A stretch of 48,115 nt of DNA from a virus: the IMG/VR virus record IMGVR_UViG_3300021197_001580, positions 1 through 48,115 of that record. The stretch is one strand, 5' to 3'. The number at the start of each line of letters is the position of its first letter. Within the stretch, counting starts at the first letter, position 1. This document shows, piece after piece, positions 32,650-48,063 of this stretch. Position numbers and translations under genes: made by a program. The notes beneath the pieces were generated by a model. That model saw only the letters and a list, made by a program, of their open reading frames with translations. It was not told the DNA's origin and searched no databases.

Positions 32650-32658
32650 TGTGTTCTC

Positions 32659-32702: not shown

Positions 32703-32728
32703 CAGTAGCATAAAGCAGGAAGAAGACC

Positions 32729-33307: not shown

Positions 33308-34134
33308 TTAGTTTCTCCATAACTGTTAATCTTTTTAAATAGAAGTCCCAGGTGTGCTGGTTCTTTGTCGGCAAGGAACGGAAATCGTCCACCACCTTCA
33401 AAGCCTTGTCCTCCCCTAGGCAAAACATAATGCTCCATGAGCTGCTGACCCTTAACCTTTTTGGCAAGGACCGGCCAGATATACGATACCGCAGCTTTCC
33501 AGAGGGTTGCCCCTCCGCCTGTAATAGCTGCCACAATATCGCCTCCTGTCGCCAAGTTCTGGGCCTTAGCCCTAGTGGCCGCTTCAGTGCTCTCTACTGC
33601 TGCATGCACGGTCTTAGTGTGCGCAATCAGTATATACGAGCAGTCGAGCGACCGCATGAACTTCTGCAGGACCTGATGCTTGAGCTTGACATTGTTGTAA
33701 AGCGCCATCGAGTCCTTCTTCTCTGGATAGACACCACCATAGTGCCCGACCAGAGCATGGTCATAGCTTGTGAGCGTGTCGATGATTACCACATTCACCT
33801 TGCCGCTCGCAACTGCTTCGGCCGTATATTTCATGGCCTCCTTCAGTTTCTTCTGCAGGTCTTGGAAGGTCTTGCACTTGGTGAAGTCAATCACGGGCGC
33901 ATTCAAGTTCAGATAGGTCAGTGATTTACTGCCCTCTTCGTCGAACTGCCAGATCAATGTGTCCTCTAGATTGGTCAGCTCCTTGGCGGGCAATACATCA
34001 GGACACTGCGCACTGTATGTCGCTGCAGCCACAGTCTTGCCTGCCTTGGGCGGCCCAATCAGCATAATCCGATCCGTGTTGTTAATGTCTACACTCATCT
34101 CTACCATGTCTTTGCTCATTTCGACCAAACCCAT
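33304..34134 (-). CDS. RecA-like P-loop ATPase (Sak4/AAA_24 type)
   Basis: A 276-residue product with Walker A GPPKAGKT (27-34) and Walker B VVIIDT (D119), of the size and pattern of phage single-strand annealing/recombination ATPases (Sak4-like). A GAGGTG site stands 5 bases before ATG 34134. Neighbours are a RecB-type nuclease upstream and the ssDNA-binding-like protein downstream, together a likely recombination or replication-restart module. Confidence 0.8.
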   Translation of the reverse strand: MGLVEMSKDMVEMSVDINNTDRIMLIGPPKAGKTVAAATYSAQCPDVLPAKELTNLEDTLIWQFDEEGSKSLTYLNLNAPVIDFTKCKTFQDLQKKLKEAMKYTAEAVASGKVNVVIIDTLTSYDHALVGHYGGVYPEKKDSMALYNNVKLKHQVLQKFMRSLDCSYILIAHTKTVHAAVESTEAATRAKAQNLATGGDIVAAITGGGATLWKAAVSYIWPVLAKKVKGQQLMEHYVLPRGGQGFEGGGRFPFLADKEPAHLGLLFKKINSYGETK

Positions 34135-34283
34135 CGAAGCACCTCACTCTCTAAGTTAAAGTTATAGCGATCAAACGAGAACCAGTTAAAGTCAACAATG
34201 ACGCGATTGTACATTAGCGCACTTTTAGAGCATTCAACTGCGTTACTACGAGACACTGCCTGGTTCAGTTCTTTTATGTTCAT
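34116..34283 (-). CDS. 55-residue hypothetical protein
   Basis: Starts at ATG 34283 with AGGAAG 8 bases upstream and an ATGA overlap with the nuclease gene; ends 19 bases inside the RecA-like gene. Phe/Trp/Asn-rich C-terminal part. No family recognised; possibly a partner of the recombination proteins. Confidence 0.6.
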   Translation of the reverse strand: MNIKELNQAVSRSNAVECSKSALMYNRVIVDFNWFSFDRYNFNLESEVLRWVWSK

Positions 34284-35101
34284 GTTGATGGCTTCCTGTC
34301 GCAAGCGCCTGTTTCATAGTGCGGGCAGACTTTGCCCCAATCAAAGCACGCAGTCAACTCTACATGACCGAGTTTATGTGTCGCGTACTTCCGCTGGTAG
34401 TAGGGCACCAAGATACTCATGGCCTCATGAACGTCTAGTGCTGGCACCGCGATGGTGTAGAACTTGACCTCCTTGTTGCGTACGATGCAGTCAGCAATCA
34501 TGCCCAGCACAGGCTCGTCCGGGTGCAGGTAGTTCCACAAAGCCGGGTATAGCATGAATTGTGTGTCTACCGAGTAGCGAAAGACATCAGTATTACCCGT
34601 ACGCTTCTTGGTCTTGAAGTCCCATATCCAGCGCCCAGGCTGAATCTCAGCCAGCTCAGGCCGCGTCTCGGCCATAGCGTCAATGTGCTCTTGTGTAATG
34701 TTAACGAGCATATCCATACGCGCTGTGATAGGAATACCAAAGGCCTCATGTAGGGCGTGCTTCTGCTCGTCGTTCGAGGGCAGTTGCTGCTCTATCGATA
34801 TGACCTCTAGGTCTGTGGGCTTGTAGCGCTCAGTGTAGGCCGTGAACAGTCGCATAGCCTCGCCCGCAGCCCAGCTGCTAGCAGTCACATCACTATCAGG
34901 CAGCGCAATCTCGTTCATCTTCCCTGGGTACCAGTACTCCATAAGCGTATGGAACATGCGCCCAACGCTTGCATCGGCGCCTGAACCACTGCCAAGCTTC
35001 TTATCGAGTATGGTCTTGCGTCCGCATGGATTGGTATAGAGGGAGTTACCTGTACCGCTTCCGCCCGTGTCCTTGTCCTCTAAGATCTTAAGTGAAGTCA
35101 T
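34280..35101 (-). CDS. RecB/Cas4-type PD-(D/E)XK nuclease
   Basis: A 273-residue nuclease with the RecB-family order: H51 (GRMFH), D130 (ARMDML), DFK 161-163 and Q181-x3-Y185. One Cys near the N-terminus (C26) and three near the C-terminus (C252, C259, C267) recall the iron-sulfur staple of AddB/Cas4, though the spacing (x6, x7) is not canonical. It probably resects DNA ends for the RecA-like ATPase downstream. AGAGG precedes the ATG by 8 bases. Confidence 0.82.
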   Translation of the reverse strand: MTSLKILEDKDTGGSGTGNSLYTNPCGRKTILDKKLGSGSGADASVGRMFHTLMEYWYPGKMNEIALPDSDVTASSWAAGEAMRLFTAYTERYKPTDLEVISIEQQLPSNDEQKHALHEAFGIPITARMDMLVNITQEHIDAMAETRPELAEIQPGRWIWDFKTKKRTGNTDVFRYSVDTQFMLYPALWNYLHPDEPVLGMIADCIVRNKEVKFYTIAVPALDVHEAMSILVPYYQRKYATHKLGHVELTACFDWGKVCPHYETGACDRKPST

Positions 35102-35255
35102 AGAAGAATCCTCTCATCTGTACTCGAAGTAGTTCATACATGTTGCGGCCGTACGCGTCTCCGTGTCCTGATGCTCGCGCCAACATTGGATGTATACGGT
35201 GTACCTGTATGTAGACCGGACCCATAGCGTCAATTAGGTCTTTATTTGTAAACAT
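35088..35255 (-). CDS. 55-residue hypothetical protein
   Basis: ATG 35255 with GAGG 5 bases upstream; it overlaps the nuclease start by 14 bases and the next upstream gene by 14. Mixed helix with His/Met/Arg; no family recognised. Confidence 0.6.
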   Translation of the reverse strand: MFTNKDLIDAMGPVYIQVHRIHPMLARASGHGDAYGRNMYELLRVQMRGFFYDFT

Positions 35256-35406
35256 GTTCGCCTCGTCTGAGCGTGTCGTGTATATGCGCCTTAGCACCGC
35301 TGCTGCGGTCCCATAACTCGTCCCACATAGCCCATATAGGTGAACTGTACTTCACGTACCCAACCAGATTGGTGTAAAGCTTTGTCCTAAGATGCTCGTT
35401 ATTCAT
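35242..35406 (-). CDS. 54-residue protein with W-D-E-L-W motif
   Basis: A very small gene (ATG 35406, TAA 35242-35244) that overlaps the helicase end by 8 bases and the next gene by 14. The product has LRTKLYTNLVG and then AMWDELWDRSSG, a pattern also seen in the small protein at 43762. Weak Shine-Dalgarno (GAAG). Function unknown. Confidence 0.6.
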   Translation of the reverse strand: MNNEHLRTKLYTNLVGYVKYSSPIWAMWDELWDRSSGAKAHIHDTLRRGEHVYK

Positions 35407-36760
35407 AATCATCTTCAACGTACCCCTCTGTTACGTCGTGCAAGGCCGCAAGCCACTCATCTTCGCTGTCCGGCTCCAATGATAGCAAGCGCTGCACGCC
35501 TAGTTCTTTCTCATTTGTGTCCACGATGGAGCTAATCGACTCCATCTTCTCCTGTACCAACATAGCTATACGCTCTTCGATAGTTCCTGCATAGACAAGA
35601 AAGTCGACGATGGTCTTTTCATCTGTGCCCAGGCGGTCAAGACGTCCCAGTGCCTGAATTACCGTCTCGGGACGATAGTACAGTTCGGCGAATAGGGCGC
35701 GATTTGCTATCTCCAAACCGTTGATACCAATCCCCACGGCGTGCATCGTCGCTACCAGGAGCCCACCGGAGCGCGTCCAAGAATCGATCGTCGCTAGTCT
35801 CTTGTCGGGCGACATACTCCCAGTAATCGTGTACTCCGATGGGATACGTTTCGCCAACTCTCTGCGGTGGGTGAAAATAACGGCGTGGTTCGTCTCCTCC
35901 ATTGCTTCCTTTGCCCATTCTTCAATCTCCTTTGTCTTCTTGTCTGCGCGTTTGTGCAGTTCCTTTAATACGTCGGTCGGAATGCGTCCGATGTCAAGGG
36001 CTTCTTTGTCACCTATCTGTAGAAGGCGCACAGTGAACGCTGGGAGTAGATGCGCGACCTCATCCTTAGTCACACGTGATGACACTGCAGCCAGCCGATG
36101 CCGCAGCTCATCTAGATGCACCTCGTTAACGCCTTCCCACTTGATGCCGTAGCCCTTGGGATTGAAGCCCAGCGAGTAGCGCTTGTTGAACTCGTAGGAG
36201 GCCTTGCCGTTCTGCTGCAGCTTGCCCCAGCGTCTGGGCCAGATGATGTCGAGCTGATTGTAAAGGTCAGTGACTCGGTCAGGCATCAGTGTAGCAGTCA
36301 GGCCTAGGATAGCGCCCTTGTGCCTGCGCGCTATGCCCTTGACGGCCTTGCTCTGCTTTGATGAGGGCGACTTGAGCTTATGCAGCTCGTCTAGCACGAT
36401 GAGGTCCCAGCCCTTCTGCGCCACGTTGTGGGCGAGGTCATAGGACACGATCTGTACTGTGGCCGCGTAGGCCTTACGCTTGCGCTCTAAGGCGGGCTTA
36501 CTAAGACCCTTCTCACGGTCGCGCCCTATGCTGATGATAGAGGCCTCTTCTGGAAAGCCCCACTTGGCCAGCTCTCGAAGCCAGCCAATGCGCACCACTG
36601 CAGGGCAAACTATCAGGACGCGCTTGGCCCCTACCTGCTTAGCAAACTCTATTGCTGTGCGCGTCTTGCCTAGGCCCGTGTCGAAGTTAATTACCCATCG
36701 ATGGGCCGGAGCAGACAACGCAGTGTCAATAGCCTCTTGCTGGTAAGGGTGTAGCTTCAT
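35399..36760 (-). CDS. SF2 (SNF2/DEAD-like) helicase
   Basis: A 453-residue helicase with Walker A DTGLGKT (27-33), box II DELH (124-127), motif III TAT (155-157) and motif VI QALGRLDRLG (near 378). Length and early MKLHPYQQEAI motif match phage SNF2-type helicases used in replication or recombination. Its start overlaps the 58-residue gene (ATGA). Confidence 0.9.
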   Translation of the reverse strand: MKLHPYQQEAIDTALSAPAHRWVINFDTGLGKTRTAIEFAKQVGAKRVLIVCPAVVRIGWLRELAKWGFPEEASIISIGRDREKGLSKPALERKRKAYAATVQIVSYDLAHNVAQKGWDLIVLDELHKLKSPSSKQSKAVKGIARRHKGAILGLTATLMPDRVTDLYNQLDIIWPRRWGKLQQNGKASYEFNKRYSLGFNPKGYGIKWEGVNEVHLDELRHRLAAVSSRVTKDEVAHLLPAFTVRLLQIGDKEALDIGRIPTDVLKELHKRADKKTKEIEEWAKEAMEETNHAVIFTHRRELAKRIPSEYTITGSMSPDKRLATIDSWTRSGGLLVATMHAVGIGINGLEIANRALFAELYYRPETVIQALGRLDRLGTDEKTIVDFLVYAGTIEERIAMLVQEKMESISSIVDTNEKELGVQRLLSLEPDSEDEWLAALHDVTEGYVEDDYE

Positions 36761-36933
36761 CCATGCTTCATCCAGCGGCCCACGCGCATAACATACGAAC
36801 CTAGACGGAACAGTAAGTTAAAAGGCATGAGCACATAAATTTTACGTAGTCCTGGGCGGTGCCCCTTAAACTTGTACTTAAAGGCGTAGCCGTGCATGAA
36901 CGGGGCAGAGCTGTTTTTTGGTCTAAATAACAT
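36757..36933 (-). CDS. 58-residue basic protein
   Basis: ATG 36933 overlaps the stop of the virion-like gene (ATGA) and its TGA overlaps the helicase start (ATGA), so coupling on both sides supports it. Product is basic (many Lys/Arg/His) with a hydrophobic centre (VLMPFNLLFRLGSYV). Function unknown. Confidence 0.68.
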   Translation of the reverse strand: MLFRPKNSSAPFMHGYAFKYKFKGHRPGLRKIYVLMPFNLLFRLGSYVMRVGRWMKHG

Positions 36934-38135
36934 CATTGTGGCGTCACCGGGGTAAGAGACTTAACTACAACCAAGTCGTATGCGATGTCAACTTGTGTTG
37001 CACCACCGCCTGACGATGCTATGGCATCCATCCATAGATCGGTCTTCTCAGGGAACTCAGGAAACACAGCAAACTCAATGTTCTCCGTGCCTTCGAGGGC
37101 CAAAGTATCGTGCACAATACGCGGCGCAGTAAATGGCGTGGTCACATCATCTGCGTTCTGCCGCTGCCAGAAGCGCACCTCTGCGGGCTTTGATGCTTCG
37201 ACCTCCATCGTAACGCGCCGTAAGTAGGCCTTATGCCCCGCAGGTACCGTGTACATGGACATTTCGGTCTGGCCCTTGCCCGCTTGAATATCTGCGAGCA
37301 GTTGATTCGTGGACGTGTTTTCGATCAGGATGTCGCCCGTATTGTTGCCGCCATAAGCGCCGCTGTCCGTCACATACGCACGATACACTCGGCGGAACGT
37401 CGCAGTAGTCGAAGAGCTTGCGGACGAGCCCGCCAGTGTGATCTCTTCTTCAACCGGATCGAAGTTCGTATCAAGCCCTTGCACTATGATCTTCTGCGCA
37501 CCAGTACCCGCTGCAGTATCGTTTGTATTCCCACCAGACCTTACGCGAACAGTCTCAGCCGCTGTAGGCCACGTGTAAGTACCGCCTGCGTCCCAGATAT
37601 CCTCGAATGATGCGGTCCCAACGTCTGAATTGTCACCAAACTTGTGTACCGTGAAGCGGTCAGCAAACAGCCCCGCGGAAACATCGAGGTAAGGGTCATT
37701 GGTCGTTCTGGTAAGCTGCACGTCATTGACACGCGAGATGGTCTGGTTAGGCGAGCTGACAAGGAACGGTGAGCGCGACTCGTGGAACGACTGCTGTATG
37801 CGCAGCGCGCCCTGGTTCGTACTGCCGTTAATTACGCGAACGCGGAAGTAGTGCGTGACGATGCCTAGGCCATGCACACTACCTGAGCCAATGGTCTGAT
37901 CAATATCGATCTGCTTGACGCGGTCGAAGTTCGTGCCGTCTTCGCTGAATTGCATCTGGAGCGTGCAATCCTGATCAGTCTCTATGGTCACAAAGACGCT
38001 TGCGAACTTTCGCGCGTCGATCGTGGGCCCGAGCAAGTCGTCGTCGGCATCAAGAGGAGTAGAGTAGGTGTAAACTATGCAATTGCGGTCTTCGTCGGGG
38101 GACCAATCCAGTCTAGTGGTCGTAATCGTAGCCAA
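36933..38135 (-). CDS. Virion-like beta-rich protein on the replication strand
   Basis: A 400-residue product that starts at TTG 38135 with AAGGAT 6 bases upstream. Its composition (Thr, Ser, Asp, Val), absence of charged helices and blocks such as SFEDIWDAGGTYTWP (about 169-183) and YRAYVTDSGAYGGNN (about 246-260) resemble phage virion structural proteins, not replication enzymes. It lies between a terminator and the helicase, with its own promoter-like -10. A head-fibre or structural protein on the opposite strand from the virion block is unusual. Confidence 0.78.
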   Translation of the reverse strand: MATITTTRLDWSPDEDRNCIVYTYSTPLDADDDLLGPTIDARKFASVFVTIETDQDCTLQMQFSEDGTNFDRVKQIDIDQTIGSGSVHGLGIVTHYFRVRVINGSTNQGALRIQQSFHESRSPFLVSSPNQTISRVNDVQLTRTTNDPYLDVSAGLFADRFTVHKFGDNSDVGTASFEDIWDAGGTYTWPTAAETVRVRSGGNTNDTAAGTGAQKIIVQGLDTNFDPVEEEITLAGSSASSSTTATFRRVYRAYVTDSGAYGGNNTGDILIENTSTNQLLADIQAGKGQTEMSMYTVPAGHKAYLRRVTMEVEASKPAEVRFWQRQNADDVTTPFTAPRIVHDTLALEGTENIEFAVFPEFPEKTDLWMDAIASSGGGATQVDIAYDLVVVKSLTPVTPQ

Positions 38136-38155
38136 GTGAATATCCTTGTTGTTGT

Positions 38156-38184
38156 ATTATACATATTGTAGAACGTAGAAAAGC
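38156..38184 (-). promoter_or_regulatory. Promoter for the virion-like gene and recombination block
   Basis: On the minus strand TATAAT (38161-38156) is a perfect -10, 17 bases from a weak -35 (GCTTTT, 38184-38179) that overlaps the U-tract of the terminator. The transcript would start about 38149, just before AAGGAT and the TTG start at 38135. Confidence 0.55.
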
Positions 38185-38214
38185 CCCGCCCATGGGATTG
38201 ACCATGAGCAGGGC
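38178..38214 (-). terminator. Strong Rho-independent terminator
   Basis: A 13-base-pair stem on the minus strand (arms 38214-38202 and 38195-38183, with two G-U pairs), 6-base loop and a TTTTC tail. It closes the early unit that comes from the right end. The -10 box described at 38156-38161 follows directly, so this is a terminator-promoter junction. Confidence 0.85.
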
Positions 38215-38223
38215 AGGTAAGTG

Positions 38224-38406
38224 TTATAGGTAGAAGCTGTTGTGCCAGACGGTTAGATTCCAAAGGTCCTCATCGAGCATACGCTTCAGATTGAAGTCTC
38301 GGGTGCCCCAGTAGGGACCGTCCCGCAGTATCTTCCCCATTAAGCGTATGCAGACCTCGTCACTATGAGCCTTAGGCCTAATCTTGAACTTGTCGCCAGC
38401 CTTCAG
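38224..38406 (-). CDS. 60-residue protein with apparent CTG start
   Basis: The frame LKAGDKFKIRPKAHSDE and onward reads as a real small basic protein and ends in TAA 38226-38224, just before the terminator. No ATG or GTG lies at its head; CTG 38406 has GGAGGAGA about 4 bases upstream. An internal ATG near codon 23 would give only 38 residues. The start is therefore probably CTG, translated from inside the previous gene (overlap 29 bases). Function unknown. Confidence 0.5.
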   Translation of the reverse strand: MKAGDKFKIRPKAHSDEVCIRLMGKILRDGPYWGTRDFNLKRMLDEDLWNLTVWHNSFYL

Positions 38407-38779
38407 GGGTCTCCTCCCGCGCTTTCTTCACGATGAAGAGTCCATTGCCCTTTGCCTTGTTCTTAAGCAGCCGCTGAGTCTTGTGTCGGTCTGGCGCAGA
38501 GGCAGGCTTAGCATGACGCAGATACGCCTCTTGACCTGCCACTTGCAGATAGCACACAAGTGGGTCGTCAGTGCCGTAGAACTTAGCCTCAGCTGCGTTC
38601 ACGTAGTGGTGATGCCCACTCTCGCTATGCGCAACCAAGAGCCTCTTCTGCTCGTCAGCCTTGACTTCCTTAGCCCCTTGAGGCAGCTCAGTGACACCTT
38701 CAAGATCAGCACGAATGATACACACCTCTCCGTGAAAGCTAACTCCATTGTTGTCTACAATTTCTTCATCAGACATCAT
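38378..38779 (-). CDS. Hypothetical protein, 133 residues
   Basis: Starts at ATG 38779 after AGGAGACA. The product has an acidic N-terminus, a His-rich turn (ESGHHHYVNAAEAKFYG, about 53-69) and a basic C-terminus. The His cluster might bind metal. No family recognised. The preceding gene ends 4 bases into its start. Confidence 0.7.
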   Translation of the reverse strand: MMSDEEIVDNNGVSFHGEVCIIRADLEGVTELPQGAKEVKADEQKRLLVAHSESGHHHYVNAAEAKFYGTDDPLVCYLQVAGQEAYLRHAKPASAPDRHKTQRLLKNKAKGNGLFIVKKAREETPEGWRQVQD

Positions 38780-38967
38780 TGTCTCCTTTTTGTTGTTTGG
38801 TCTAATATTTCTCTACGCAGCGTACGGCCCATATCAAACCCACCTACGTCGCGCCATAACGCTTGATCTAGCTCATCGTACCACTCACTAGTATCACATA
38901 GCTGCGAGTCGAGTTTTTCTAGCAATACATCGAAAAGCCCATATCCACCATATGAGCCCAAACTCAC
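38776..38967 (-). CDS. 63-residue hypothetical protein
   Basis: Starts at GTG 38967, overlapping the stop of the DUF6745-like gene (GTGA). Gly/Tyr-rich N-terminus and an acidic WYDELDQALWRDVGG stretch (about 29-43), close in style to the DELW motif of other tiny proteins here. Overlaps the next gene by 4 bases. Confidence 0.62.
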   Translation of the reverse strand: MSLGSYGGYGLFDVLLEKLDSQLCDTSEWYDELDQALWRDVGGFDMGRTLRREILDQTTKRRQ

Positions 38968-39932
38968 GTGCGCACAAACCCGCCCTTGATCAGATCCACA
39001 TCAATCTGATGCGCTAGGGCCTGAGCTTCAAGGGCTGTATTGGCTTCATGTGCAGCATACAGGGCGAACTCACGCCCAGTGCTCTCCTCTAGAACACGCA
39101 AGAACTTACATGGCCCATGATCTGGCAAGTCGACCTCGACCAGCGTACCAATCTGAGGATCAGGGTCCTTGTCAATGATCTTAGGATTCAGCTGTTCAAT
39201 GACCGTGTGCCAGCCCAAGATCTCGGCCAAGCATCGACGCTGCTCGATGTTGGGGTGAGTCAGGGCCAACGATGGGTCAATGTTCTCTTTGTCCTCGATC
39301 CACTCAGCTGGGATGCGCTGGCCATGCCATGCATACATCTTGAAGTCATCACGATACGCCCAGTAGGGCCCATGTTCGGCATGGCCATTATCGTTCTCAT
39401 CGGCCAAGATAACACATGGGCGGTCTGACATGATGCAGACATCGCTTAGCATCCACCACCAGCCAGCATTCTCAGCCACCTGGAGATGACCTTCAATGGA
39501 CGGCCCGTCATAGGTCACTGGTAGATGCTTCAAGACGAAGTCCCAGTGAGCAAGCCAATACAGATCCTGCTGTCCATGAGCTGCGCGCTCAAGCATGGGC
39601 CGGCTGGCTGTGCGTAGCTTGCGTTGGTCTTCTTCTGACGCGGCATCGTAGATCTCTTTGGTGAACTTCTCGTAAGGCCCGAAGATCTTACGCAATTCAC
39701 CATCTGGGTCTTGTTCGACCAGTGCTGCCATAAGCATACCAACGAATGGACTGCTCGTCCACACCACAGGAGGCATGGGCTCTTCGACCATCTTGTAGGC
39801 CTTGGCCGCGCCTTCCTCGGCCAGCTCTTTGTTAGCTGTCTCTGTGCTGGTAGCTAAGGCCCGATACTTGGTGCGGTACTCCTTGAGGATTGCCCATTTC
39901 TCGTCCGGCATGCTGTCAATTGTCTCTGTCAT
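38964..39932 (-). CDS. DUF6745-like protein
   Basis: A 322-residue product whose C-terminal half (about 190-315) matches the layout I know for DUF6745: PYWAYRDDFKMYAWHGQRIP (about 190-209), then a helical NIEQRRCLAEILGW segment, a beta strand pair with VEVDLPDHGPCKFLRVL, and a helical tail. In bacteria this domain is found in large proteins of unknown function. The phage version is shorter. It is probably a soluble cytoplasmic early protein. Recognised from memory, not by search. Confidence 0.62.
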   Translation of the reverse strand: MTETIDSMPDEKWAILKEYRTKYRALATSTETANKELAEEGAAKAYKMVEEPMPPVVWTSSPFVGMLMAALVEQDPDGELRKIFGPYEKFTKEIYDAASEEDQRKLRTASRPMLERAAHGQQDLYWLAHWDFVLKHLPVTYDGPSIEGHLQVAENAGWWWMLSDVCIMSDRPCVILADENDNGHAEHGPYWAYRDDFKMYAWHGQRIPAEWIEDKENIDPSLALTHPNIEQRRCLAEILGWHTVIEQLNPKIIDKDPDPQIGTLVEVDLPDHGPCKFLRVLEESTGREFALYAAHEANTALEAQALAHQIDVDLIKGGFVRT

Positions 39933-39955
39933 TGTTCTGTCCTTTTCCTTGTGTT

Positions 39956-40285
39956 TTAAAACTTCTTACCGTGTTTATAGTCTCGTCCGCGATTGTAGTC
40001 AAGCTTTGCTTCCATGGCACCTACGATATCTAGGCCGTCATGCTCTGCCCAATCTAGAATACGTATTACCACATCGGCCAACTCTTCTTCAAGTGAAGAA
40101 TACGCTTTTATTTTATCACTTGGTGGATTGCCTGCGCGCGCGCCTTCGAGGGCCTCACTCAGCTCACTGTGTGTCAGCGCAATGATCTCGCCCGTGTTGC
40201 GTGGCTCATCCCACCAGCCCTTCTCCTTGGCCACTTCATGTATGGCCCGCTGCCAGGCCGGTATGTCACTCTTTGTTGATGCCAT
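39956..40285 (-). CDS. MazG-like nucleotide pyrophosphohydrolase
   Basis: A 109-residue all-alpha product with the MazG metal motif: EIIALTHSELSEALEGAR (about 33-50; E40 and E44 types) and EEELADVVIRILDWAEHDGLD (EExxD pattern, about 66-86), ending in a basic YKHGKKF tail. Such enzymes clear (p)ppGpp or non-standard nucleotides. ATG 40285 with GAGG 7 bases upstream is preferred to the TTG two codons before. Confidence 0.85.
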   Translation of the reverse strand: MASTKSDIPAWQRAIHEVAKEKGWWDEPRNTGEIIALTHSELSEALEGARAGNPPSDKIKAYSSLEEELADVVIRILDWAEHDGLDIVGAMEAKLDYNRGRDYKHGKKF

Positions 40286-40436
40286 CTTCAATCCTCTCCT
40301 TCAGTTCAATAGGTATCATCCAGCAGTTCTTGTATCGGTCCCAGTAGACGCCTGGATACTGCGTCAAGTTGAGGGCCTCAGTTGCGCCCGTCAACTCATA
40401 GAACCAAGGTGTTCGGGCGCTAAGCTGCCAGTTCAC
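40266..40436 (-). CDS. 56-residue protein resembling a helicase N-terminal module
   Basis: Starts at GTG 40436 (GGAAG about 9 bases upstream) and overlaps the MazG-like gene by 20 bases. The product NLTQYPGVYWDRYKNCWMIPI (about 23-43) resembles the short domain that precedes SNF2/HARP helicases. As a stand-alone protein it may be an adaptor for the helicase at 35399. Only a style match, not a proven homology. Confidence 0.58.
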   Translation of the reverse strand: MNWQLSARTPWFYELTGATEALNLTQYPGVYWDRYKNCWMIPIELKERIEDGINKE

Positions 40437-40599
40437 TGTATATAGCTTCCGACAGGTTGCCGTGTAGCTGAGCGCTCAACGCCCACTTTAACTTCCCATA
40501 AAAGGTGTCATGCATAAAAGGCCCATAGCCTAGCTGTTGCTTAAGGGCAGCGTGCATGAGCCGGCGCATACTTAGGCTGCTTAGATCATTACTTCCCAT
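40420..40599 (-). CDS. 59-residue basic helical protein
   Basis: ATG 40599 with AGGAG 7 bases upstream and TAG 40422-40420 within the next gene (17-base overlap). Basic, Met/His/Lys/Leu-rich helix. Strong ribosome site and tight packing support it. Function unknown. Confidence 0.68.
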   Translation of the reverse strand: MGSNDLSSLSMRRLMHAALKQQLGYGPFMHDTFYGKLKWALSAQLHGNLSEAIYSELAA

Positions 40600-40617
40600 A
40601 TCGATGCTCCTACCAGG

Positions 40618-40866
40618 TTAATACTGCGGGCCCAGGTGTTCTGAGGCGCAATCACGACGCATGCGGTCCACCTCTGCATAGACGATATCGCAGACCACAT
40701 TGTAAATACGCCGCTGTGTAAGGTCATCAAACTTCTCCAGTAGCGCGTCCAGCGGAGGCCAGGCGTCGTTCGCCTTGGCCTCGCCGGGAGTGATACGCTC
40801 ATAAATGACGCCGTTGTAGTGCCCTTTGGTGCCAGTAGATACCTTCTTCTTCTTCTTCCTAGTCAT
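40618..40866 (-). CDS. 82-residue basic protein
   Basis: Lys-rich N-terminus (MTRKKKKKVS) that could bind nucleic acid, followed by a mixed helical body with acidic patches. AGGAG stands about 10 bases before the start. A second frame at 40581-40802 overlaps and is less protein-like. Function unknown. Confidence 0.65.
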   Translation of the reverse strand: MTRKKKKKVSTGTKGHYNGVIYERITPGEAKANDAWPPLDALLEKFDDLTQRRIYNVVCDIVYAEVDRMRRDCASEHLGPQY

Positions 40867-41053
40867 CTCTTAACATCTCCTGTTCAAGTGTAAGCGTAAG
40901 ACCTCCAATGGGAGTAATACTATGTTGCATCTGCCTTTTCAGCTCCCATCGAAAAGCATACGCCAATGTCTGCATCTGCATCAACTGGACTGCGCATTGG
41001 CCCCCGACTATAAAGTTGTTTCTAATCAAGCGGGTCGCCTTCTTGCTGTCCAT
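40859..41053 (-). CDS. 64-residue helical protein
   Basis: ATG 41053 with GGAG 6 bases upstream; longer in-frame starts lie in the previous gene. The product has a basic N-terminus and then Met/Gln/Leu-rich helix. It overlaps its neighbours by 8 and 32 bases. Function unknown. Confidence 0.6.
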   Translation of the reverse strand: MDSKKATRLIRNNFIVGGQCAVQLMQMQTLAYAFRWELKRQMQHSITPIGGLTLTLEQEMLRDD

Positions 41054-41285
41054 CCTCTTCTCCTTTCTGCAGCACGAGCTTGTGGCGGCTATCGCCCATC
41101 TCTTCGACAATGAGTGTGACCTCGCCATCGAGCTGCCGACGCAACATCGTGCGCGTGTCAATCTCTAGCTCACCGCCGACCTCTTCAAGTACTCCTGCTA
41201 GAAGTACTTCCATTGAGCGCATGCCCACCTGGAGTTCGACAATCTGCCGCTTCAGTTCTTTCTTACTCACGTCTTTATCTTTCAT
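41022..41285 (-). CDS. 87-residue helical protein, possible coiled coil
   Basis: Charged helix with heptad-like Leu/Val (DVSKKELKRQIVELQVGM, about 5-22), a middle acidic part and a Gly/Glu-rich C-terminus. ATGA overlap with the gene before it. Function unknown. Confidence 0.62.
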   Translation of the reverse strand: MKDKDVSKKELKRQIVELQVGMRSMEVLLAGVLEEVGGELEIDTRTMLRRQLDGEVTLIVEEMGDSRHKLVLQKGEEDGQQEGDPLD

Positions 41286-41476
41286 GGTGAACTCATGCTC
41301 ACGCTATCTTGCCACGTCCAGCCTATATCGTGCTTCATCTCCTCAACTAAGGCGGTACCAAGTCTACCTTGTGTAAAATAAACAAAGCTGGCCCTGACCT
41401 GACTCTCAAGCTGCACAATCATGTGGCGATGGAGCGCCTCGCAATGCATAACAATAAGCTTTTCATCGTACTTCAT
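41282..41476 (-). CDS. 64-residue hypothetical protein
   Basis: Starts at ATG 41476, 4-base overlap with the RepA-like gene (ATGA) and ATGA overlap with the next. Product has HRHMIVQLESQVRASF helix and a Trp-rich tail. Function unknown. Confidence 0.62.
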   Translation of the reverse strand: MKYDEKLIVMHCEALHRHMIVQLESQVRASFVYFTQGRLGTALVEEMKHDIGWTWQDSVSMSSP

Positions 41477-42489
41477 GGTTTTACTCCAAAGCCACGGCCG
41501 CGCACGACCATAGCGCCATCATCCATCAGTCTCTTCAAGATATCCTCCACAATGTGCTGCTCAGGTATAGCCCAGGCAGTGCTTAAGCTCTTCTTGCTGT
41601 AGCGCTTATCGGGCAATAGCTTCGCCAGACAAGAATCAATCAGTGCCTCATCTACTACATCTAGCGCATCTACCAACTGCAAGTCTAGCTTGACTTGAGG
41701 CTTCTCCTCATCTTTGATGAACCACCAGCTGGCCTTGTAGAACAGATCGCCGGCCTCGTTCGACCGCACAATCCACTCGATGCTCTTCTTGTTAGTCGGG
41801 TTAGGCTTCACGTGCAGATGCACATCGTAGCCGCCCGAGGTCGCAGTGCTGCCGCGCAAGGCCTGGTCAGGATCATACTCGCCCTGATCATCCAGGCTGA
41901 TCTTGCGCGAGTGATGCACTAGCACCACAGCACAGCCATTGGCCCTGATTGCATCCACGCTGAGCAGCACCTTGTTGATATCTTGAGAACTGTTCTCATT
42001 ACCTGTGTGTGACTTGCTGAGCGTATCAATCATGACGCACTGGATGTTCTTCTCTTGCACAAACTTACATATTTCGGCCACATCGCGCGGTACGTCCAAT
42101 CTATGGCCCGACATGTGGCTAAAGTAAAAGTTCCTACTTACCTCTTCGATGGGCACACCCAGGCCCGTCTCAATCATGCGCATCCGGTTCGCAGTGGCCT
42201 TACCAGGCGATTCAAGCTCTATGACCCACACGGGCACGCCCTCAGTTTGAGTGGGCTTGAAGCCGAACTCTGAGCTACCGTGGGCCAGCGCAAAGGCCAT
42301 CGAGAAGAGTGTCCAGCTCTTATACGAGACCGTAGGCGCGCCTGATACAATAGTCAGGCCCTGGTACATGATAAAGTCCTCAAGCAGCCATGTAGGCACG
42401 GGCAGAGACTCCATATACTCTACCCAAGCGTTTAGTGTCCATGTGTTCCGCGGAAACAGTCCTGTGTCTTGTCCTTCTGTATCAGTCAT
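41473..42489 (-). CDS. RepA-like AAA+/RecA-fold ATPase with winged-helix tail
   Basis: A 338-residue product from ATG 42489 (ATGA overlap; ATG 42507 is the longer alternative). Walker A GAPTVSYKS (50-58) has Tyr in place of Gly before Lys, a variant known in RepA-type helicase-primase ATPases. E91 (VIELE), Walker B D155 (VMIDT) and VVLVHHS follow. The last 60 residues form a winged helix (SKKSLSTAWAIPEQHIV). Likely a replication ATPase that opens or loads at the origin. Confidence 0.8.
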   Translation of the reverse strand: MTDTEGQDTGLFPRNTWTLNAWVEYMESLPVPTWLLEDFIMYQGLTIVSGAPTVSYKSWTLFSMAFALAHGSSEFGFKPTQTEGVPVWVIELESPGKATANRMRMIETGLGVPIEEVSRNFYFSHMSGHRLDVPRDVAEICKFVQEKNIQCVMIDTLSKSHTGNENSSQDINKVLLSVDAIRANGCAVVLVHHSRKISLDDQGEYDPDQALRGSTATSGGYDVHLHVKPNPTNKKSIEWIVRSNEAGDLFYKASWWFIKDEEKPQVKLDLQLVDALDVVDEALIDSCLAKLLPDKRYSKKSLSTAWAIPEQHIVEDILKRLMDDGAMVVRGRGFGVKP

Positions 42490-42656
42490 TTTCGGGTCCA
42501 CTCCCATAACTCTGTCCCTAGTACATAGGAGGCAAAAGGACGGAGCAGGAGGTTAGGTCCTCGGACACAAAGATGGCCACCAAATAGTGGCTCTAACTGC
42601 GCTATAGTAACCCGCCTCAGTATGTTCTGCGCCTCTATATCAGGTTGCTTTGTCAT
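42486..42656 (-). CDS. 56-residue hypothetical protein
   Basis: ATG 42656, TGA 42488-42486 (ATGA overlap with the RepA-like gene and 4-base overlap with the lipoprotein gene). Leu/Arg/Glu-rich helix and C-terminal ELWEWTRK. Coupling on both sides supports it. Function unknown. Confidence 0.66.
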   Translation of the reverse strand: MTKQPDIEAQNILRRVTIAQLEPLFGGHLCVRGPNLLLRPFASYVLGTELWEWTRK

Positions 42657-43135
42657 TTGCAGTATACCTCCGCATCCAGCTCACGATATTCGCGCACGGC
42701 CTGCCACAGCTCAGTCTGTTGGTGCTCACCGTCCGAGTCGCCATGCAAGAACAGCATCAGATGCGTCAGCTCATGTGTCAGAGAGGACTGATAGATACAC
42801 GACATGTACACCAGTGTAATCAGACCCTTAGGATGGGCTACTGTAGGTGTGTTGAACAGGCCCAGAGCTACCACAGGCACCTCGCCCTCACGATAGCGCT
42901 CAACCAAGGGCTCCTGCACGCGCACAACGAGACCATCAAGTGCTTCGTCGTCCTGGTCATATAGATCGCCCCAGGTCTCATCAATGATGCTCTCAACGGT
43001 GTCTTGGGCCCATTCGCGCTCCTCAAACACGAACTTGACCCCGTGACTGGTCGTAAAGCTGCCACTTGCGCATCCTGCAGATGAACTGCACATTACACAC
43101 AAAACAAGGTACAATACTAAAGATGTCCACTTCAT
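42653..43135 (-). CDS. Lipoprotein zinc metalloprotease
   Basis: A 160-residue product from ATG 43135 (AGGA 7 bases upstream). An N-terminal signal (MKWTSLVLYLVLCVMCSSS) ends in lipobox SAGC, Cys 22, so it should be a membrane-anchored lipoprotein. HELTH (H121-E122-H125) with a later H138 and E142 is a zincin site. An early-expressed, envelope-anchored protease might modify the cell surface or exclude other phages. Substrate unknown. Confidence 0.8.
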   Translation of the reverse strand: MKWTSLVLYLVLCVMCSSSAGCASGSFTTSHGVKFVFEEREWAQDTVESIIDETWGDLYDQDDEALDGLVVRVQEPLVERYREGEVPVVALGLFNTPTVAHPKGLITLVYMSCIYQSSLTHELTHLMLFLHGDSDGEHQQTELWQAVREYRELDAEVYCK

Positions 43136-43189
43136 TGCTTCATCCTGCCTTTCTTTGGTCATGCACTAAGTGCGCGGCCAATTATGTTG

Positions 43190-43399
43190 TTACCGCTGGC
43201 TCTTTAGTAACTCTAGATCGACGCTGTCCAGCATGTCACCAAGATCATGAGCTTCAATTGCCTCCTGAAGCTGATGCAGAGCCCACTCAGGCATTGTTGG
43301 ATCTAGGGGTTTTGCCTGAACCATAGCCCCTAGCTCTTCTTCTAGCATCTTAATGATGGCCAGTAGCACCATCTCGTTGTCTGTCATATCAAGTGTCAT
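43190..43399 (-). CDS. 69-residue acidic helical protein
   Basis: Acidic, Leu/Glu/Met-rich helix throughout. AGGAGACAGACA stands before ATG 43399. A 54-base gap separates it from the lipoprotein gene. Function unknown. Confidence 0.66.
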   Translation of the reverse strand: MTLDMTDNEMVLLAIIKMLEEELGAMVQAKPLDPTMPEWALHQLQEAIEAHDLGDMLDSVDLELLKSQR

Positions 43400-43410
43400 T
43401 GTCTGTCTCC

Positions 43411-43551
43411 TTAAAAGTGCTCTAATTCAGCTCTTAGTTCGAGTTCCCGGTCCATAAACCTACTCAGCCCAAGACGCAGCCATACAGAAAAAGGAGTCTG
43501 TGTCCACAGTACGTCAAGCGCCGTCAGCTGCTCTTTCCTAACGTTCTTCAT
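43411..43551 (-). CDS. 46-residue hypothetical protein
   Basis: ATG 43551 preceded by GAGGAG at 8 bases, TAA 43413-43411. Trp/Leu/Arg-rich (WLRLGLSRFMDRELELRAEL). Stop lies 2 bases after the previous gene end. Function unknown. Confidence 0.6.
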   Translation of the reverse strand: MKNVRKEQLTALDVLWTQTPFSVWLRLGLSRFMDRELELRAELEHF

Positions 43552-43553
43552 TC

Positions 43554-43772
43554 TCAAGCTCCTCTCTTTGCTAGCAGCGTACTCAGCACGCCCTTCCTAG
43601 TTGCTACATCGGCCCAGGCCTTCCGCGCGTTCTCATCGCACATCTCGGCCATATCCACAGCCTCAGTGACTGCGATGTCGGCAAAGTATATGTCCGAGTC
43701 AGTCACGGCCTCATCATACTCGATAGTCTCCACTTTGATGCCCATCTTGTGTAGTAGTTGTTCAAGATTCAT
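43554..43772 (-). CDS. 72-residue acidic protein
   Basis: Acidic protein (Asp/Glu-rich centre, one Cys at 45) with AGGTGG upstream. It is separated by two bases from its downstream neighbour and overlaps the previous gene by 11 bases. Function unknown. Confidence 0.64.
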   Translation of the reverse strand: MNLEQLLHKMGIKVETIEYDEAVTDSDIYFADIAVTEAVDMAEMCDENARKAWADVATRKGVLSTLLAKRGA

Positions 43773-43938
43773 CTTTAATCATCCACCTGCGCACGGCCAG
43801 CGTTAAACTGTCGCTATTAGCTCCAAAGAGTCGATTCCATAGCTCGTCATATTGTCGACCCTCAAGTGTATAGGACAGCTGTACTCCTACACTATAACGC
43901 AAGTCACTATGCAGTTCACTCCTCTTAATCAGTCCCAT
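43762..43938 (-). CDS. 58-residue protein with DELW motif
   Basis: ATG 43938 with GGAGG 7 bases upstream; it begins inside the regulator gene. Product carries LHSDLRYSVGVQLSYTLEG and then YDELWNRLFG, the same layout as the protein at 35242. Overlaps the next gene by 11 bases. Function unknown. Confidence 0.65.
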   Translation of the reverse strand: MGLIKRSELHSDLRYSVGVQLSYTLEGRQYDELWNRLFGANSDSLTLAVRRWMIKDES

Positions 43939-44627
43939 TGCCAATCCTCCGCGTGTTCAAGGTAAATCTCTTCAGCTGCACCATCTACAACCAGTAGGTC
44001 GGCCAGCTTATCGACTGGTGTCACTGCTCTCAATGCTTCAGGGCCCTTGATCTTCTTGACCTTGGTGTCCTTGATGCGCTCTAGCGCCTCGATATCGCAC
44101 TTCATGATATGTGATGCCGCGGGCACAGACACAAAATACTGAGCCAACTGCGCTTCTTGCACATCTTCAGCCGCAGCCTTGACTTGGGCAGTGTAAGCGT
44201 TGTTCTTGTACAAGAACTGACGCATAGCTATCATCATAAGCGCGCCCTTAGAGCAATTAGTGCGAAATGCCACGGCCTGCAGGTCATCAAGCTCAGTCTT
44301 AGGCACCATGAACGACATCTTAGTGAATTGGCGCTTGTATTGGCTGTCAGCTCGCTTGAATGAGCGCACAGTGGGCGCCTTCTCGTATGAGATGTTCTCG
44401 GTCATCCATCGGTACATGCGATCAGCCTCCTCAGGCCCAGGCAGCTGCTTGCCCCCCAAGTACCTATTCAATAGGTCACGACTAATACCTATCTGCTTGG
44501 CCATGAGCACCACAGTTACACCGCGCTGTCGCTGCACTAGACGCAACTTACTCGCAATAACCTCTGCAGTCTCCTTCTGCAGGCCCACAAGCGCAGCATG
44601 TAGGGTTGTCTGCCTCTTATTCTTCAT
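43929..44627 (-). CDS. Transcription regulator, HTH plus ribbon-helix-helix
   Basis: A 232-residue product with two DNA-binding regions. Residues about 25-80 form a Cro-type helix-turn-helix (VVLMAKQIGISRDLLNRYLGG at 39-59). Residues about 100-143 resemble a ribbon-helix-helix (beta strand KMSFMVP, then TELDDLQAVAFRTNCSKGAL). The remainder is helical and charged. ATGA overlap with the gene before it. Position early in the operon suits a regulator of the early-to-late switch or a host modulator. Confidence 0.75.
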   Translation of the reverse strand: MKNKRQTTLHAALVGLQKETAEVIASKLRLVQRQRGVTVVLMAKQIGISRDLLNRYLGGKQLPGPEEADRMYRWMTENISYEKAPTVRSFKRADSQYKRQFTKMSFMVPKTELDDLQAVAFRTNCSKGALMMIAMRQFLYKNNAYTAQVKAAAEDVQEAQLAQYFVSVPAASHIMKCDIEALERIKDTKVKKIKGPEALRAVTPVDKLADLLVVDGAAEEIYLEHAEDWQWD

Positions 44628-44812
44628 GACTCAGTCCACTCGCGTAGCTCCCTACGAAGTTCCCACAGAGGCATGCCCGCTGGGCGGCGATCAATCTTCC
44701 AGCGCAATTCTCTAGCTATGTCGTGGCCAAGTGGGACCCATTTAAGCTTGTTTATGGTCTGCATCACATTAAACATCAGCTTAAGCGAACGCATGTCATT
44801 AATTGCCCTCAT
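44624..44812 (-). CDS. 62-residue basic protein
   Basis: ATG 44812 preceded by GAGGAGAGG; longer in-frame starts lie in the neighbouring gene. Basic (Arg/Lys-rich) with Trp and His; overlaps neighbours by 4 (ATGA) and 14 bases. Function unknown. Confidence 0.64.
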   Translation of the reverse strand: MRAINDMRSLKLMFNVMQTINKLKWVPLGHDIARELRWKIDRRPAGMPLWELRRELREWTES

Positions 44813-44993
44813 GCTCAACCCTCTCCTCAAGTTCCCAGTCACAGTCATCGCCCAAGCAACTATATGAAAAGTCCTCATTCCCGTTATAATACAATGTACG
44901 TACAAGTAGCTTTGTATCGCACTTAGGGCACACTGTGCGCCTATACTTGCGCTGATACCACTTGTACCACCTGTGCACGACCCAATTAGTCAT
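44799..44993 (-). CDS. Zinc-ribbon protein
   Basis: A 64-residue product: basic aromatic N-terminus, then CPKC at 22-25 and C-x4-C at 46-51, followed by an acidic tail. A classic small zinc ribbon that could bind DNA, RNA or RNA polymerase. ATGA-coupled to the gene before it. Confidence 0.72.
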   Translation of the reverse strand: MTNWVVHRWYKWYQRKYRRTVCPKCDTKLLVRTLYYNGNEDFSYSCLGDDCDWELEERVEHEGN

Positions 44994-45196
44994 AGGTCAT
45001 GCTCCTGCATCCATTCATCAAAGGCCGCTTCCATAGCGTCGCCAACTTTAGCTCTCAACGCGTCAAAGTCATGTACTCTGCACTTTTGTGTGCGCATCTC
45101 CTCAATGCATGCTAGACAGCCAAACGCAGGATTGTTCTCATGCTGGCCTGCATCGTGCTCGTTTTCTAACCGTGTGTTATGTTCCGCTAATGACAC
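44990..45196 (-). CDS. 68-residue Cys/His-containing protein
   Basis: GTG 45196 with GGGAG about 5 bases upstream. The product has C-x2-C (27-30), C39 and several His, possibly metal-binding, in an acidic helical context. Overlaps the next gene by 4 bases and the previous by 20. Function unknown. Confidence 0.62.
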   Translation of the reverse strand: MSLAEHNTRLENEHDAGQHENNPAFGCLACIEEMRTQKCRVHDFDALRAKVGDAMEAAFDEWMQEHDL

Positions 45197-45365
45197 TGTG
45201 CTCTCCCTTGCGTATGTAGCCGACTTCTTCCATGAAATAGGCCGCCAGTGCTAGTGCGCACCGCTCAGCCTCGCCCTCTGTGAGGTCATGCCACTTGATA
45301 TCAGCCTTCAGTTGCTCTGTCCATGTCTTCATTATGTACAGGTCCAAGGTTTCCTTTTCTTGCAT
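45177..45365 (-). CDS. 62-residue acidic protein
   Basis: ATG 45365 with GGAGG 6 bases upstream, the best site of the local starts. Helical with Trp/Leu/Ala. Its first 65 bases overlap the end of the next gene in another frame. Function unknown. Confidence 0.63.
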   Translation of the reverse strand: MQEKETLDLYIMKTWTEQLKADIKWHDLTEGEAERCALALAAYFMEEVGYIRKGEHSVISGT

Positions 45366-45741
45366 TCTCAACCTCCATGCGCAGCCTTGCGCGCTCTTTA
45401 CTATGTAGATATCGCCGTCTCACACCAAGATTGGCCGAGTCCTCAATGAGCCTATCCAAGTTCATTGATGAGCCCTTGGCAACTACCATGTATGACCACA
45501 CACCGTCAATGTGCTCGCGTACGCTCATACGCGCTCGTGCCAAGGCCTGCGTGTAGGTCATGTTCTCAGCGCTGCCTAGTGGCTCTAGCTCGCGCACAAC
45601 AGAGCCTGCAACGTAACTATACACATACAGGTCCCAGTCCTGGGCCACGTCTAGTGCGCTCTTATCCGAGTAAAGAGGCCTATTAGCTGTTTTCTTGCTA
45701 TAGTTGTAATACCTAGCAGCTGATTTGTTTTCATTGTTCAT
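45301..45741 (-). CDS. 146-residue hypothetical protein
   Basis: ATG 45741 (ATGA overlap). Tyr/Asn/Arg-rich N-terminus, then a charged helical body with a strongly basic patch (RRRYLHSKERARLRMEVENARK, in pieces at about 107-128). No family recognised. It may bind nucleic acid. Confidence 0.66.
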   Translation of the reverse strand: MNNENKSAARYYNYSKKTANRPLYSDKSALDVAQDWDLYVYSYVAGSVVRELEPLGSAENMTYTQALARARMSVREHIDGVWSYMVVAKGSSMNLDRLIEDSANLGVRRRYLHSKERARLRMEVENARKGNLGPVHNEDMDRATEG

Positions 45742-45956
45742 TTGAACCACACTGCAACAAAGCCCAAGCACGTCATAAAGAACAGCAGCAGCTGACGCGT
45801 TATGATACGGTCAACACGCTTCATTTCCTGAACCATGCCGCGCATAGTCAACAACTGTGTCTCTGACAATGCCGTAAGCGTCATATTGACCTTGTCTTCG
45901 GGCGTGGCCGCATCATATTGCGCCTTAAACGCCTTCACTGCTTCATTATCATCCAT
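45738..45956 (-). CDS. 72-residue tail-anchored membrane protein
   Basis: A helical N-terminal part (about 1-50) and one C-terminal transmembrane helix (about 52-71, RQLLLFFMTCLGFVAVW). AAGGAGG is an ideal ribosome site. Topology would place the soluble part in the cytoplasm. An early membrane protein of this size could be a superinfection-exclusion or anti-holin-like factor. Confidence 0.7.
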   Translation of the reverse strand: MDDNEAVKAFKAQYDAATPEDKVNMTLTALSETQLLTMRGMVQEMKRVDRIITRQLLLFFMTCLGFVAVWFK

Positions 45957-46122
45957 TTGCTACCTCCTTACATACGGCCAAGATTGTGCTCGTGGCCAAG
46001 TGTGTGAATTCCTTATCGCTTACAATGCGCGTAAGCATGAAATTGGCCCAGCAGTCTTGATGCATGGCATGTGACTTCGCATGGGCTTTCCAATATCGCG
46101 CCGTTTGATGTAGTTTACTCAT
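45949..46122 (-). CDS. 57-residue His-rich protein
   Basis: ATG 46122 with AGGAG about 10 bases upstream, TGA 45951-45949 overlapping the next start by 8 bases. Product has several His and Lys residues in a helix. Function unknown. Confidence 0.62.
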   Translation of the reverse strand: MSKLHQTARYWKAHAKSHAMHQDCWANFMLTRIVSDKEFTHLATSTILAVCKEVANG

Positions 46123-46309
46123 CTTCTTCGTTCTCCTTTCGCATGTCTCGGTCAGTCTTTAAAGTACGTAAAATGGCCATTTCAGCCTCTCTGAGGCTAT
46201 CAACAACAGGCATTAGGTGTAACTTCTCATAACTGCGCTGAGCTAGCTCTAAAGCCTTGCGTAGCATCTGAGCGTGCTCACAGTTGCAATAGTCAGGATG
46301 CTTACTCAT
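46115..46309 (-). CDS. 64-residue helical protein with CNC-H cluster
   Basis: ATG 46309 with GGAGG 9 bases upstream (ATGA overlap). N-terminal HPDYCNCEHAQ may bind a metal; the rest is charged helix. Function unknown. Confidence 0.64.
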   Translation of the reverse strand: MSKHPDYCNCEHAQMLRKALELAQRSYEKLHLMPVVDSLREAEMAILRTLKTDRDMRKENEEDE

Positions 46310-46734
46310 CGCAATGAACCTCCGTTTGCGGCCTTAGCCTCTGCAAGCTCTATTTGCTCATCTTCAAGTCGCTCTTTCTCTTCTTCGTTCCACTCGGCTT
46401 CCTTGTCATCTAGTTCAGACTCAAGTCCACTGGCCCACAATTCAACTCCCATTGAAACATAATATACGGCCATACCAGCCCAAGACGTGCCAGTAGGAGG
46501 TGGAATCAACTCGACATACACTCCCTCTAGCTCGTCTAGAATATCATCGCCATGTTCAGACATAGTCTTAAGCGCCCACCAGTACGTTACAGCAGGCATA
46601 TAGGCCCCACTAGCACATCCACCTTGCACAATGGCTTGCACGTCATACACAGTGATATCCTGCTCAATCCATTCTGGCACATCAATGCCTAGCTCTTTGA
46701 CTTCCTTGTTGCCGAATTCGTCCTCAGTCGTCAT
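46306..46734 (-). CDS. 142-residue hypothetical protein
   Basis: Acidic protein with a Trp-, Val- and Pro-containing middle (YVELIPPPTGTSWAGMAVYY, about 73-92) and a long Glu/Lys helix at the end (about 105-140). No family recognised. Confidence 0.64.
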   Translation of the reverse strand: MTTEDEFGNKEVKELGIDVPEWIEQDITVYDVQAIVQGGCASGAYMPAVTYWWALKTMSEHGDDILDELEGVYVELIPPPTGTSWAGMAVYYVSMGVELWASGLESELDDKEAEWNEEEKERLEDEQIELAEAKAANGGSLR

Positions 46735-46943
46735 TGTCCTAGCTCCTCTCTAAGTTCAAGACACATCAAATCATGGTCGCTCATGAGGGGCAAGCCCAAA
46801 GTTGCGTCCATTGTCGGGGTCTGAAGGGCGTGGTGCGTGCTCTCAAGCTCGCCCAATACGCCCTCTAAGTCGCCCACAATGTGCACAACCTCTGCGTTGT
46901 GTGCGACAATGTTCTTGGTTTTATGTGTGTGTGTTCTAGTCAT
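46731..46943 (-). CDS. 70-residue hypothetical protein
   Basis: ATG 46943 with GGAGG 8 bases upstream; an upstream in-frame start at 46970 is less supported. His/Thr-rich N-terminus, then helix. ATGA overlap with the next gene. A 98-base gap lies upstream, holding no strong promoter that I can see. Confidence 0.6.
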   Translation of the reverse strand: MTRTHTHKTKNIVAHNAEVVHIVGDLEGVLGELESTHHALQTPTMDATLGLPLMSDHDLMCLELREELGQ

Positions 46944-47041
46944 GTTCATAGCCTCCATGCACCATATCATTGCAATAGGTGTACCAATGCATCTAAGAGG
47001 CTATTAGAGCCATTTAACGCACTGCGGCTATGACATCTATG

Positions 47042-47200
47042 TCAATCGCTATGAAAGACTTGCATAGCTTGGATGAGGTCGCGCCTGTAGTGTGGATGCA
47101 ACTCCCAAAAGAGGAGACGGCGTAGCTCGATGTTCATTGTAGTCCCGAACGACGCCCACAGAACCTTCTCTAGGCTCGTTTTAAGTTCTTTACTACTCAT
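47042..47200 (-). CDS. 52-residue hypothetical protein
   Basis: ATG 47200 overlaps the previous gene by 8 bases. Product: helical LKTSLEKVLWASFG, then RRLLFWELHPHYRRD. Shine-Dalgarno is weak. Function unknown. Confidence 0.58.
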   Translation of the reverse strand: MSSKELKTSLEKVLWASFGTTMNIELRRLLFWELHPHYRRDLIQAMQVFHSD

Positions 47201-47534: not shown

Positions 47535-47563
47535 AATATGCGCGCGCTCTATGTGCGTGTCAA
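47535..47563 (-). promoter_or_regulatory. Sigma-70-like promoter, third copy of a repeated element
   Basis: On the minus strand TTGACA (47563-47558) is followed after 17 bases by CATATT (47540-47535). The segment GCACTTGACACGC-CAT is clearly related to the two sites at 47871-47885 and 48049-48063 but has lost the -12 TTGC. The transcript would start about 47528, next to the ribosome site of the 47365-47514 gene. Confidence 0.45.
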
Positions 47564-47581
47564 GTGCGTTGGCCGCGTTAG

Positions 47582-47870: not shown

Positions 47871-47885
47871 GCAATGAGCGTGCCA
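47871..47885 (-). promoter_or_regulatory. Sigma-54-like promoter, copy B
   Basis: Minus-strand TGGCAC (47885-47880), 5 bases, TTGC (47874-47871), then A. This matches the RpoN consensus TGGCACG-N4-TTGCW in full. It lies between the stop region of a possible 24-codon frame and the 47582-47857 gene. A sigma-54 promoter would need an enhancer-binding activator from the host. Confidence 0.55.
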
Positions 47886-48048
47886 AGTGCTCTCCTGGCC
47901 CCATACGTACAGTGCTGCGCTGCGTCATGCGACATCCATGTCAATGCGCTATGCAATCTTTGCGATGTAAGTCCGTGTGTGTGCTGTGATGCGCGCGCGC
48001 ATGCGTACAGGCGGTCTTCTATGTGGTCATGCTACTACCATCGCTCAC

Positions 48049-48063
48049 GCAAGAACCGTGCCA
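48049..48063 (-). promoter_or_regulatory. Sigma-54-like promoter, copy A
   Basis: Minus-strand TGGCAC (48063-48058), 5 bases, TTGC (48052-48049), then G. Upstream it shares GGGCCCAGAGG-type sequence with copy B. Predicted start of transcription is about 48037. It would drive the leftward early block. Confidence 0.55.

Follow-up and report, generated by a model that had tools for sequence, protein, structure and literature searches.

The head of the leftward replication arm in a 48,115-nucleotide stretch of viral DNA (the whole stretch analysed, called here the window) probably carries sigma-54 (RpoN) promoters of the -24/-12 type together with enhancers, a reading given a probability of about 0.8. 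The fuller version, in which sigma-54 promoters, palindromic enhancers and a host enhancer-binding protein would jointly drive the arm, is also considered well probable. The arm served by the promoters (29764 to 46734, minus strand) encodes a DNA polymerase (29764-32103), a Sak4-like ATPase (33304-34134), an exonuclease (34280-35101), a helicase (35399-36760), a primase/helicase-like protein (41473-42507) and an HTH_31 protein (43929-44627). Given these replication genes, the promoters named P1 to P3 head the replication arm, and its expression is presumed to be early.

All three promoters are on the minus strand: P1 (48048 to 48064, TTGGCACGGTTCTTGCG) with a predicted start at about 48037, P2 (47870 to 47886, TTGGCACGCTCATTGCA) with one at about 47859, and P3 (46971 to 46987, TTGGTACACCTATTGCA) with one at about 46960. 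Each has GG at -24 and GC at -12, as in the consensus forms TGGCAC-N5-TTGC or TTGGYRYR-N4-TTGCW. The initial annotation had reported TGGCAC-N5-TTGC twice on this strand, 178 bp apart, and both copies are present (47885-47871 and 48063-48049); as it had also stated, there is no further exact match in the window. Its count of two holds for the exact form, but it overlooked P3, which lies about 900 bp deeper into the same leftward arm than P2 and differs from TGGCAC by a T in place of C. P3 is situated between small ORFs that are separated by about 100 bp, and P2 and its palindrome are in the right end of the window, correctly described earlier as gene-poor.

The pair of exact TGGCAC-N5-TTGC matches is in itself only modestly unlikely, because 4 of 300 dinucleotide shuffles reach at least two (shuffle mean 0.15), and with up to two mismatches allowed the pattern occurs in the window at chance-level frequency. 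P2 and P3 are the only complete matches to the longer form, TTGGYRYR-N4-TTGCW, on either strand of the window (at 47886 and 46987, minus strand), a result reached in 0/300 dinucleotide shuffles. P1, the copy at 48064, deviates from it solely at the last base, which is G and not A/T. The first leftward ORF past P1 and P2 (47582 to 47857, minus strand) encodes 91 aa with no family match, and the predicted start of P2 is only 2 nt ahead of its ATG; this putative 2-nt leader is a weak point of the sigma-54 reading. Past P3, an ORF at 46731 to 46943 (minus strand; listed as 46731-46970) has its ATG 8 nt after GGAGG.

P2 and P3 are each preceded by a palindromic candidate activator site on the minus strand, at 47931 to 47944 (TTGACATGGATGTC) and 47031 to 47045 (TTGACATAGATGTCA) respectively. 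Both putative sites are centred at about -77, a possible enhancer position for a sigma-54 promoter. GACAT-NN-ATGTC occurs exactly twice in the whole window, paired with P2 and P3, and the distance from palindrome to promoter is identical in the two cases (58 bp upstream, start to start). Not one of 300 dinucleotide shuffles holds even a single pair of palindrome and promoter at most 150 bp apart. CATAGCG precedes both TTGACATGGATGTC and TTGACATAGATGTCA by a few bases, and the upstream ORF 47042-47200 has a stop codon that overlaps the P3 palindrome. In the notation of the general class, TGACA-N4-TGTCA, the P2 palindrome reads TGACA-N4-TGTCG. The corresponding place for P1 falls past the end of the record (48115), and when the record end is joined to the start no palindrome is found at the position expected for P1.

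In the proposed mechanism, P1, P2 and P3 would be occupied by host sigma-54 holoenzyme in the closed state until a host enhancer-binding protein, composed of an AAA+ domain and a Fis-type HTH, bound the palindrome and opened the sigma-54 polymerase. P3 would re-prime the leftward arm some 900 bp further in, and P1 would be a third promoter with its enhancer place outside the record. A search of the window for a Sigma54_activat (PF00158) domain found none with E values up to 10; the activator would therefore come from the host, whose physiology would switch the arm. The sigma-54 interpretation in the initial annotation has gained support at the sequence level from the palindromes at a fixed distance, from the third unit P3, and from the recurrence of the arrangement in other phages and ahead of chaperone genes, in a phylum for which sigma-54 control of chaperones has been published.

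A Cytophagaceae genome has the composite of palindrome and promoter at a dnaK gene, and TGACA-N4-TGTCA plus promoter was sought in its phylum (Bacteroidota as defined by GTDB; 345 genomes). The strict composite is found in 3/345 genomes, with four matches where we estimate about 0.07 by chance, and the reversed control composite is found in 0/345. All three loci (L058, L059, L060) directly precede dnaK or hsp20-dnaK, the hsp20 genes being named by eye, and in each a second palindromic site is about 20 bp from the first. The palindrome class of the window matches that before these genes. In the taxonomic class of G122, a dnaK-bearing genome, 2/98 genomes match, and a more relaxed palindrome gained nothing in Bacteroidota. 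The tandem TGACA-type palindromes at L058-L060 are a candidate activator site of the Bacteroidota sigma-54 chaperone regulon. In Flavobacterium psychrophilum, 5'-end mapping has assigned sigma-54 promoters to groESL, dnaK, grpE-dnaJ, htpG and clpB (PMC9723704), and in Bacteroidota and Planctomycetota the targets predicted for sigma-54 are enriched in chaperones (PMC12316311); the passages of these two papers used here name no activator site for the regulon.

In a phage contig of 27% GC (G005 48962-52220, locus L046), a sigma-54-type promoter with tandem TGACA-type palindromes directly precedes dnaK, which is followed by a gene that we assign as probable dnaJ. Its DnaK is 58% identical to the DnaK of Lak phages. 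What the phages share with the Bacteroidota regulon is the composite, which in the bacteria stands before dnaK or hsp20-dnaK and in this phage before dnaK. The window differs from that regulon in that its arm is without a chaperone gene and its host is probably not of the Bacteroidia.

The identity of the activator is the weakest step. It is tentatively proposed to be a host activator of the stress/chaperone type, or else a paralogue sharing its half-site. That phages of several phyla share an enhancer-sigma-54 module read by a host chaperone/proteotoxic-stress activator is a more doubtful proposition. We give even odds to genuine sigma-54 promoters with an activator unrelated to chaperones, such as a type IV pilus regulator or another two-component regulator of the NtrC class. 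The composite matches 3/195 Myxococcota genomes, ahead of non-chaperone genes, and 1/369 gammaproteobacterial genomes, this being the centre genome only, where it seems to head a short RNA; the gene starts of the window, moreover, are unlike those of Bacteroidota-type phages. Against such an activator stands the strict composite in the Bacteroidota phylum, which is found only ahead of dnaK or hsp20-dnaK. PilR-type regulators have the half-site TGTC, and a literature search found no PilR-type site for comparison with the palindromes. In a different phylum, near L041, 0/46 genomes match.

Downstream of the composite at the gammaproteobacterial locus (L040 509-700, from a MAG) there is a short stretch in which a hairpin resembling a terminator and a T-run occur, and the promoter perhaps heads a sigma-54-dependent small RNA. 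With a looser pattern, scanning genomes yielded 31 loci, where our estimate of the expected number is about 14. As a regulon this list was rejected, many of its loci being inside ORFs or otherwise explicable; among them are nifH promoters of Hydrogenophilales/Tepidiphilus, for which NifA is probably responsible.

Each of the three genomes with dnaK behind the composite encodes 3-6 strong activators. All three share an activator of the single-domain kind, which combines AAA+ with a Fis-type HTH and lacks a receiver; the Cytophagaceae genome encodes its best full-length counterpart (42% over 406 aa), and this protein is a candidate for reading the palindrome. Single-domain activators are located at L093 880-2019 and L088 793-2070. 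By a rough count, the fraction of genes with a Shine-Dalgarno sequence is 0.61 in the window, against 0.00 (6 genes) in L107 and 0.19 in G005, contigs resembling Bacteroidota phages that served as the comparison set. The Shine-Dalgarno-rich genes of the window therefore point to a host probably of another lineage than the class Bacteroidia, and this host may rely on a different activator that shares the half-site. Among annotated phages, the closest capsid relatives of the window are mostly from Actinobacteria phages (21-26% identity), and that phylum effectively lacks RpoN (PMC12316311); this weighs against the sigma-54 reading, but a similarity so distant does not predict the host.

The composite is also found in other phages. 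A scan of IMG/VR for GACAT-NN-ATGTC plus promoter returned six stretches, of which L009, L010 and L011 clearly share the architecture of the window, and later scans added the phage stretches L045, L046, L066, L107 and L108. The contigs bearing it range from 27% to 61% GC. The generalised phage site is TATGACA-N4-TGTCATA. It commonly occurs as tandem copies at intervals of about 20-23 bp, and the centre of the nearest full site is mostly at -66 to -88, with closer ones too in L045, L010 and L066. A single control region of L009 holds five copies of the site; the three in L108, which has the promoter form TGGCAT, are centred at -119, -99 and -77, and in L107 two separate promoters are each preceded by such sites. 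Neither of the contigs behind L011 and L046 has a perfect ATGACA-N4-TGTCAT or a TGGCRY-N5-TTGC other than the paired ones. Because the phage contigs were retrieved by the composite itself, one copy per contig is the selection criterion, and independent evidence comes only from exclusivity, from context and from copies in tandem. The counts from the scans are not decisive by themselves: a control with an everted palindrome found 4 loci compared with 8, and two of those 4 hold a true-type site. None of eight tested phage records has a Sigma54_activat (PF00158) domain at E up to 10.

The window is linked to G001, G003 and G004 by distant structural or polymerase similarity only. No close relatives by DNA polymerase or major capsid protein were found in IMG/VR, a megablast of window positions 24001-48115 against phages gave no match, and the module is absent from the annotated distant relatives L003-L005. 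The exact palindrome variant of the window plus promoter has no match in IMG/VR or GTDB genomes.

The palindromes, and perhaps the TGGCAC repeats as well, could alternatively be operators for the phage HTH protein (43929-44627), which would be a repressor or an activator, the fit to sigma-54 being incidental. An HTH_31 protein is indeed encoded in the window, and L009 and L010 crowd many palindromes into a single control region in the style of phage operators. However, the identical pairing of palindrome and promoter precedes bacterial dnaK genes and is found in phages with little protein similarity to the window, with the -24/-12 spacing kept throughout. The initial annotation had itself offered a phage-specific operator that fits the consensus by accident; because the composite recurs in dissimilar phages and before host chaperone genes, this alternative is disfavoured and considered unlikely.

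Several further stretches from the scans were set aside: L006 and L008 (identical in sequence), L007 and L047 resemble chance matches in coding DNA, and L065, L067, L069 and L070 are located inside long open frames. In L107, two perfect tandem palindromes are found at 5587-5621 inside an apparent ORF (5367-5921), with no promoter nearby. The promoter at L045 12484-12590 (G004 31234-31340) points into a short stretch where a hairpin and a T-run occur, and beyond it is a leftward gene resembling the small subunit of terminase; no obvious gene is downstream of the promoter, which may thus give a short RNA or be a false positive. At L072 6368-6436, sites like TAGACA-N4-TGTCTA lie about 32 bp apart ahead of TTGGCACGCTTCTTGCA, and this variant is perhaps another activator specificity in a phage.

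A -35/-10 sigma-70 match coincides with none of P1, P2 and P3. The only sigma-70-like match in the region (47563-47535) is of a kind found at chance frequency. That the sigma-54 matches are accidental and the operon is read from sigma-70 promoters is very improbable: the shuffle result for the exact pair and the chance-level frequency of the relaxed pattern are in its favour, whereas the equal spacing to the only two palindromes of the window (0/300 shuffles), the recurrence with tandem sites in other contigs and the chance frequency of that lone sigma-70-like match speak against it. The latter match, TTGACA-17-CATATT at 47535-47570 (minus strand), shares bases with a weaker, third copy of the repeat seen at P1 and P2 and could be a housekeeping promoter inside the arm.

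Considered as sigma-54 promoters, P1 to P3 resemble known enhancer-dependent ones in the -24 GG, the -12 GC and their usual spacing, in the palindrome at about -77 of P2 and P3 and, in other phage contigs, in the tandem sites. These predicted promoters differ from typical sigma-54 systems in heading a phage replication arm and in that the activator gene is not phage-encoded. Phage early genes are usually described as transcribed from promoters that host sigma-70, the housekeeping sigma factor, reads, and hence as on by default. The promoters of the window share with these their place at the head of an early/replication arm and differ in having no -35/-10 match at P1-P3. The window promoters also agree with the Desulfovibrio sigma-54 consensus tGGcacg/tTGC (PMC4641369). 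Another link between phages and sigma-54 was proposed for Pectobacterium phage Q19, which has a putative sigma-54-like protein (PMC7693777); that case differs in resting on a weakly supported protein similarity, with neither promoter nor enhancer. The elements themselves are thus of a known kind, and the new part is their use and recurrence in phages. No phage operon under enhancer-sigma-54 control was found in the open-access literature searched, subscription journals being mostly outside the scope of the search, and this absence is weak evidence of novelty.

If the early operon is gated by an enhancer, infection would depend on a single host activator and on the physiology by which that activator is controlled. 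If, in addition, the activator is of the chaperone type, early phage transcription would be licensed by the stress state of the host, and phage genes would be co-induced with chaperones that the phage needs. Such phages may be searched for by a DNA signature, TGACA-N4-TGTCA about 50 bp ahead of TTGGCAC-N5-TTGC, and the same palindrome is a candidate binding place for the activator of sigma-54-dependent chaperone genes in Bacteroidota-type bacteria. Among the other proteins of the replication arm, that at 36933-38135 matches phrog_8198 and that at 38964-39932 matches phrog_31813 / DUF6745, both families of unknown function.
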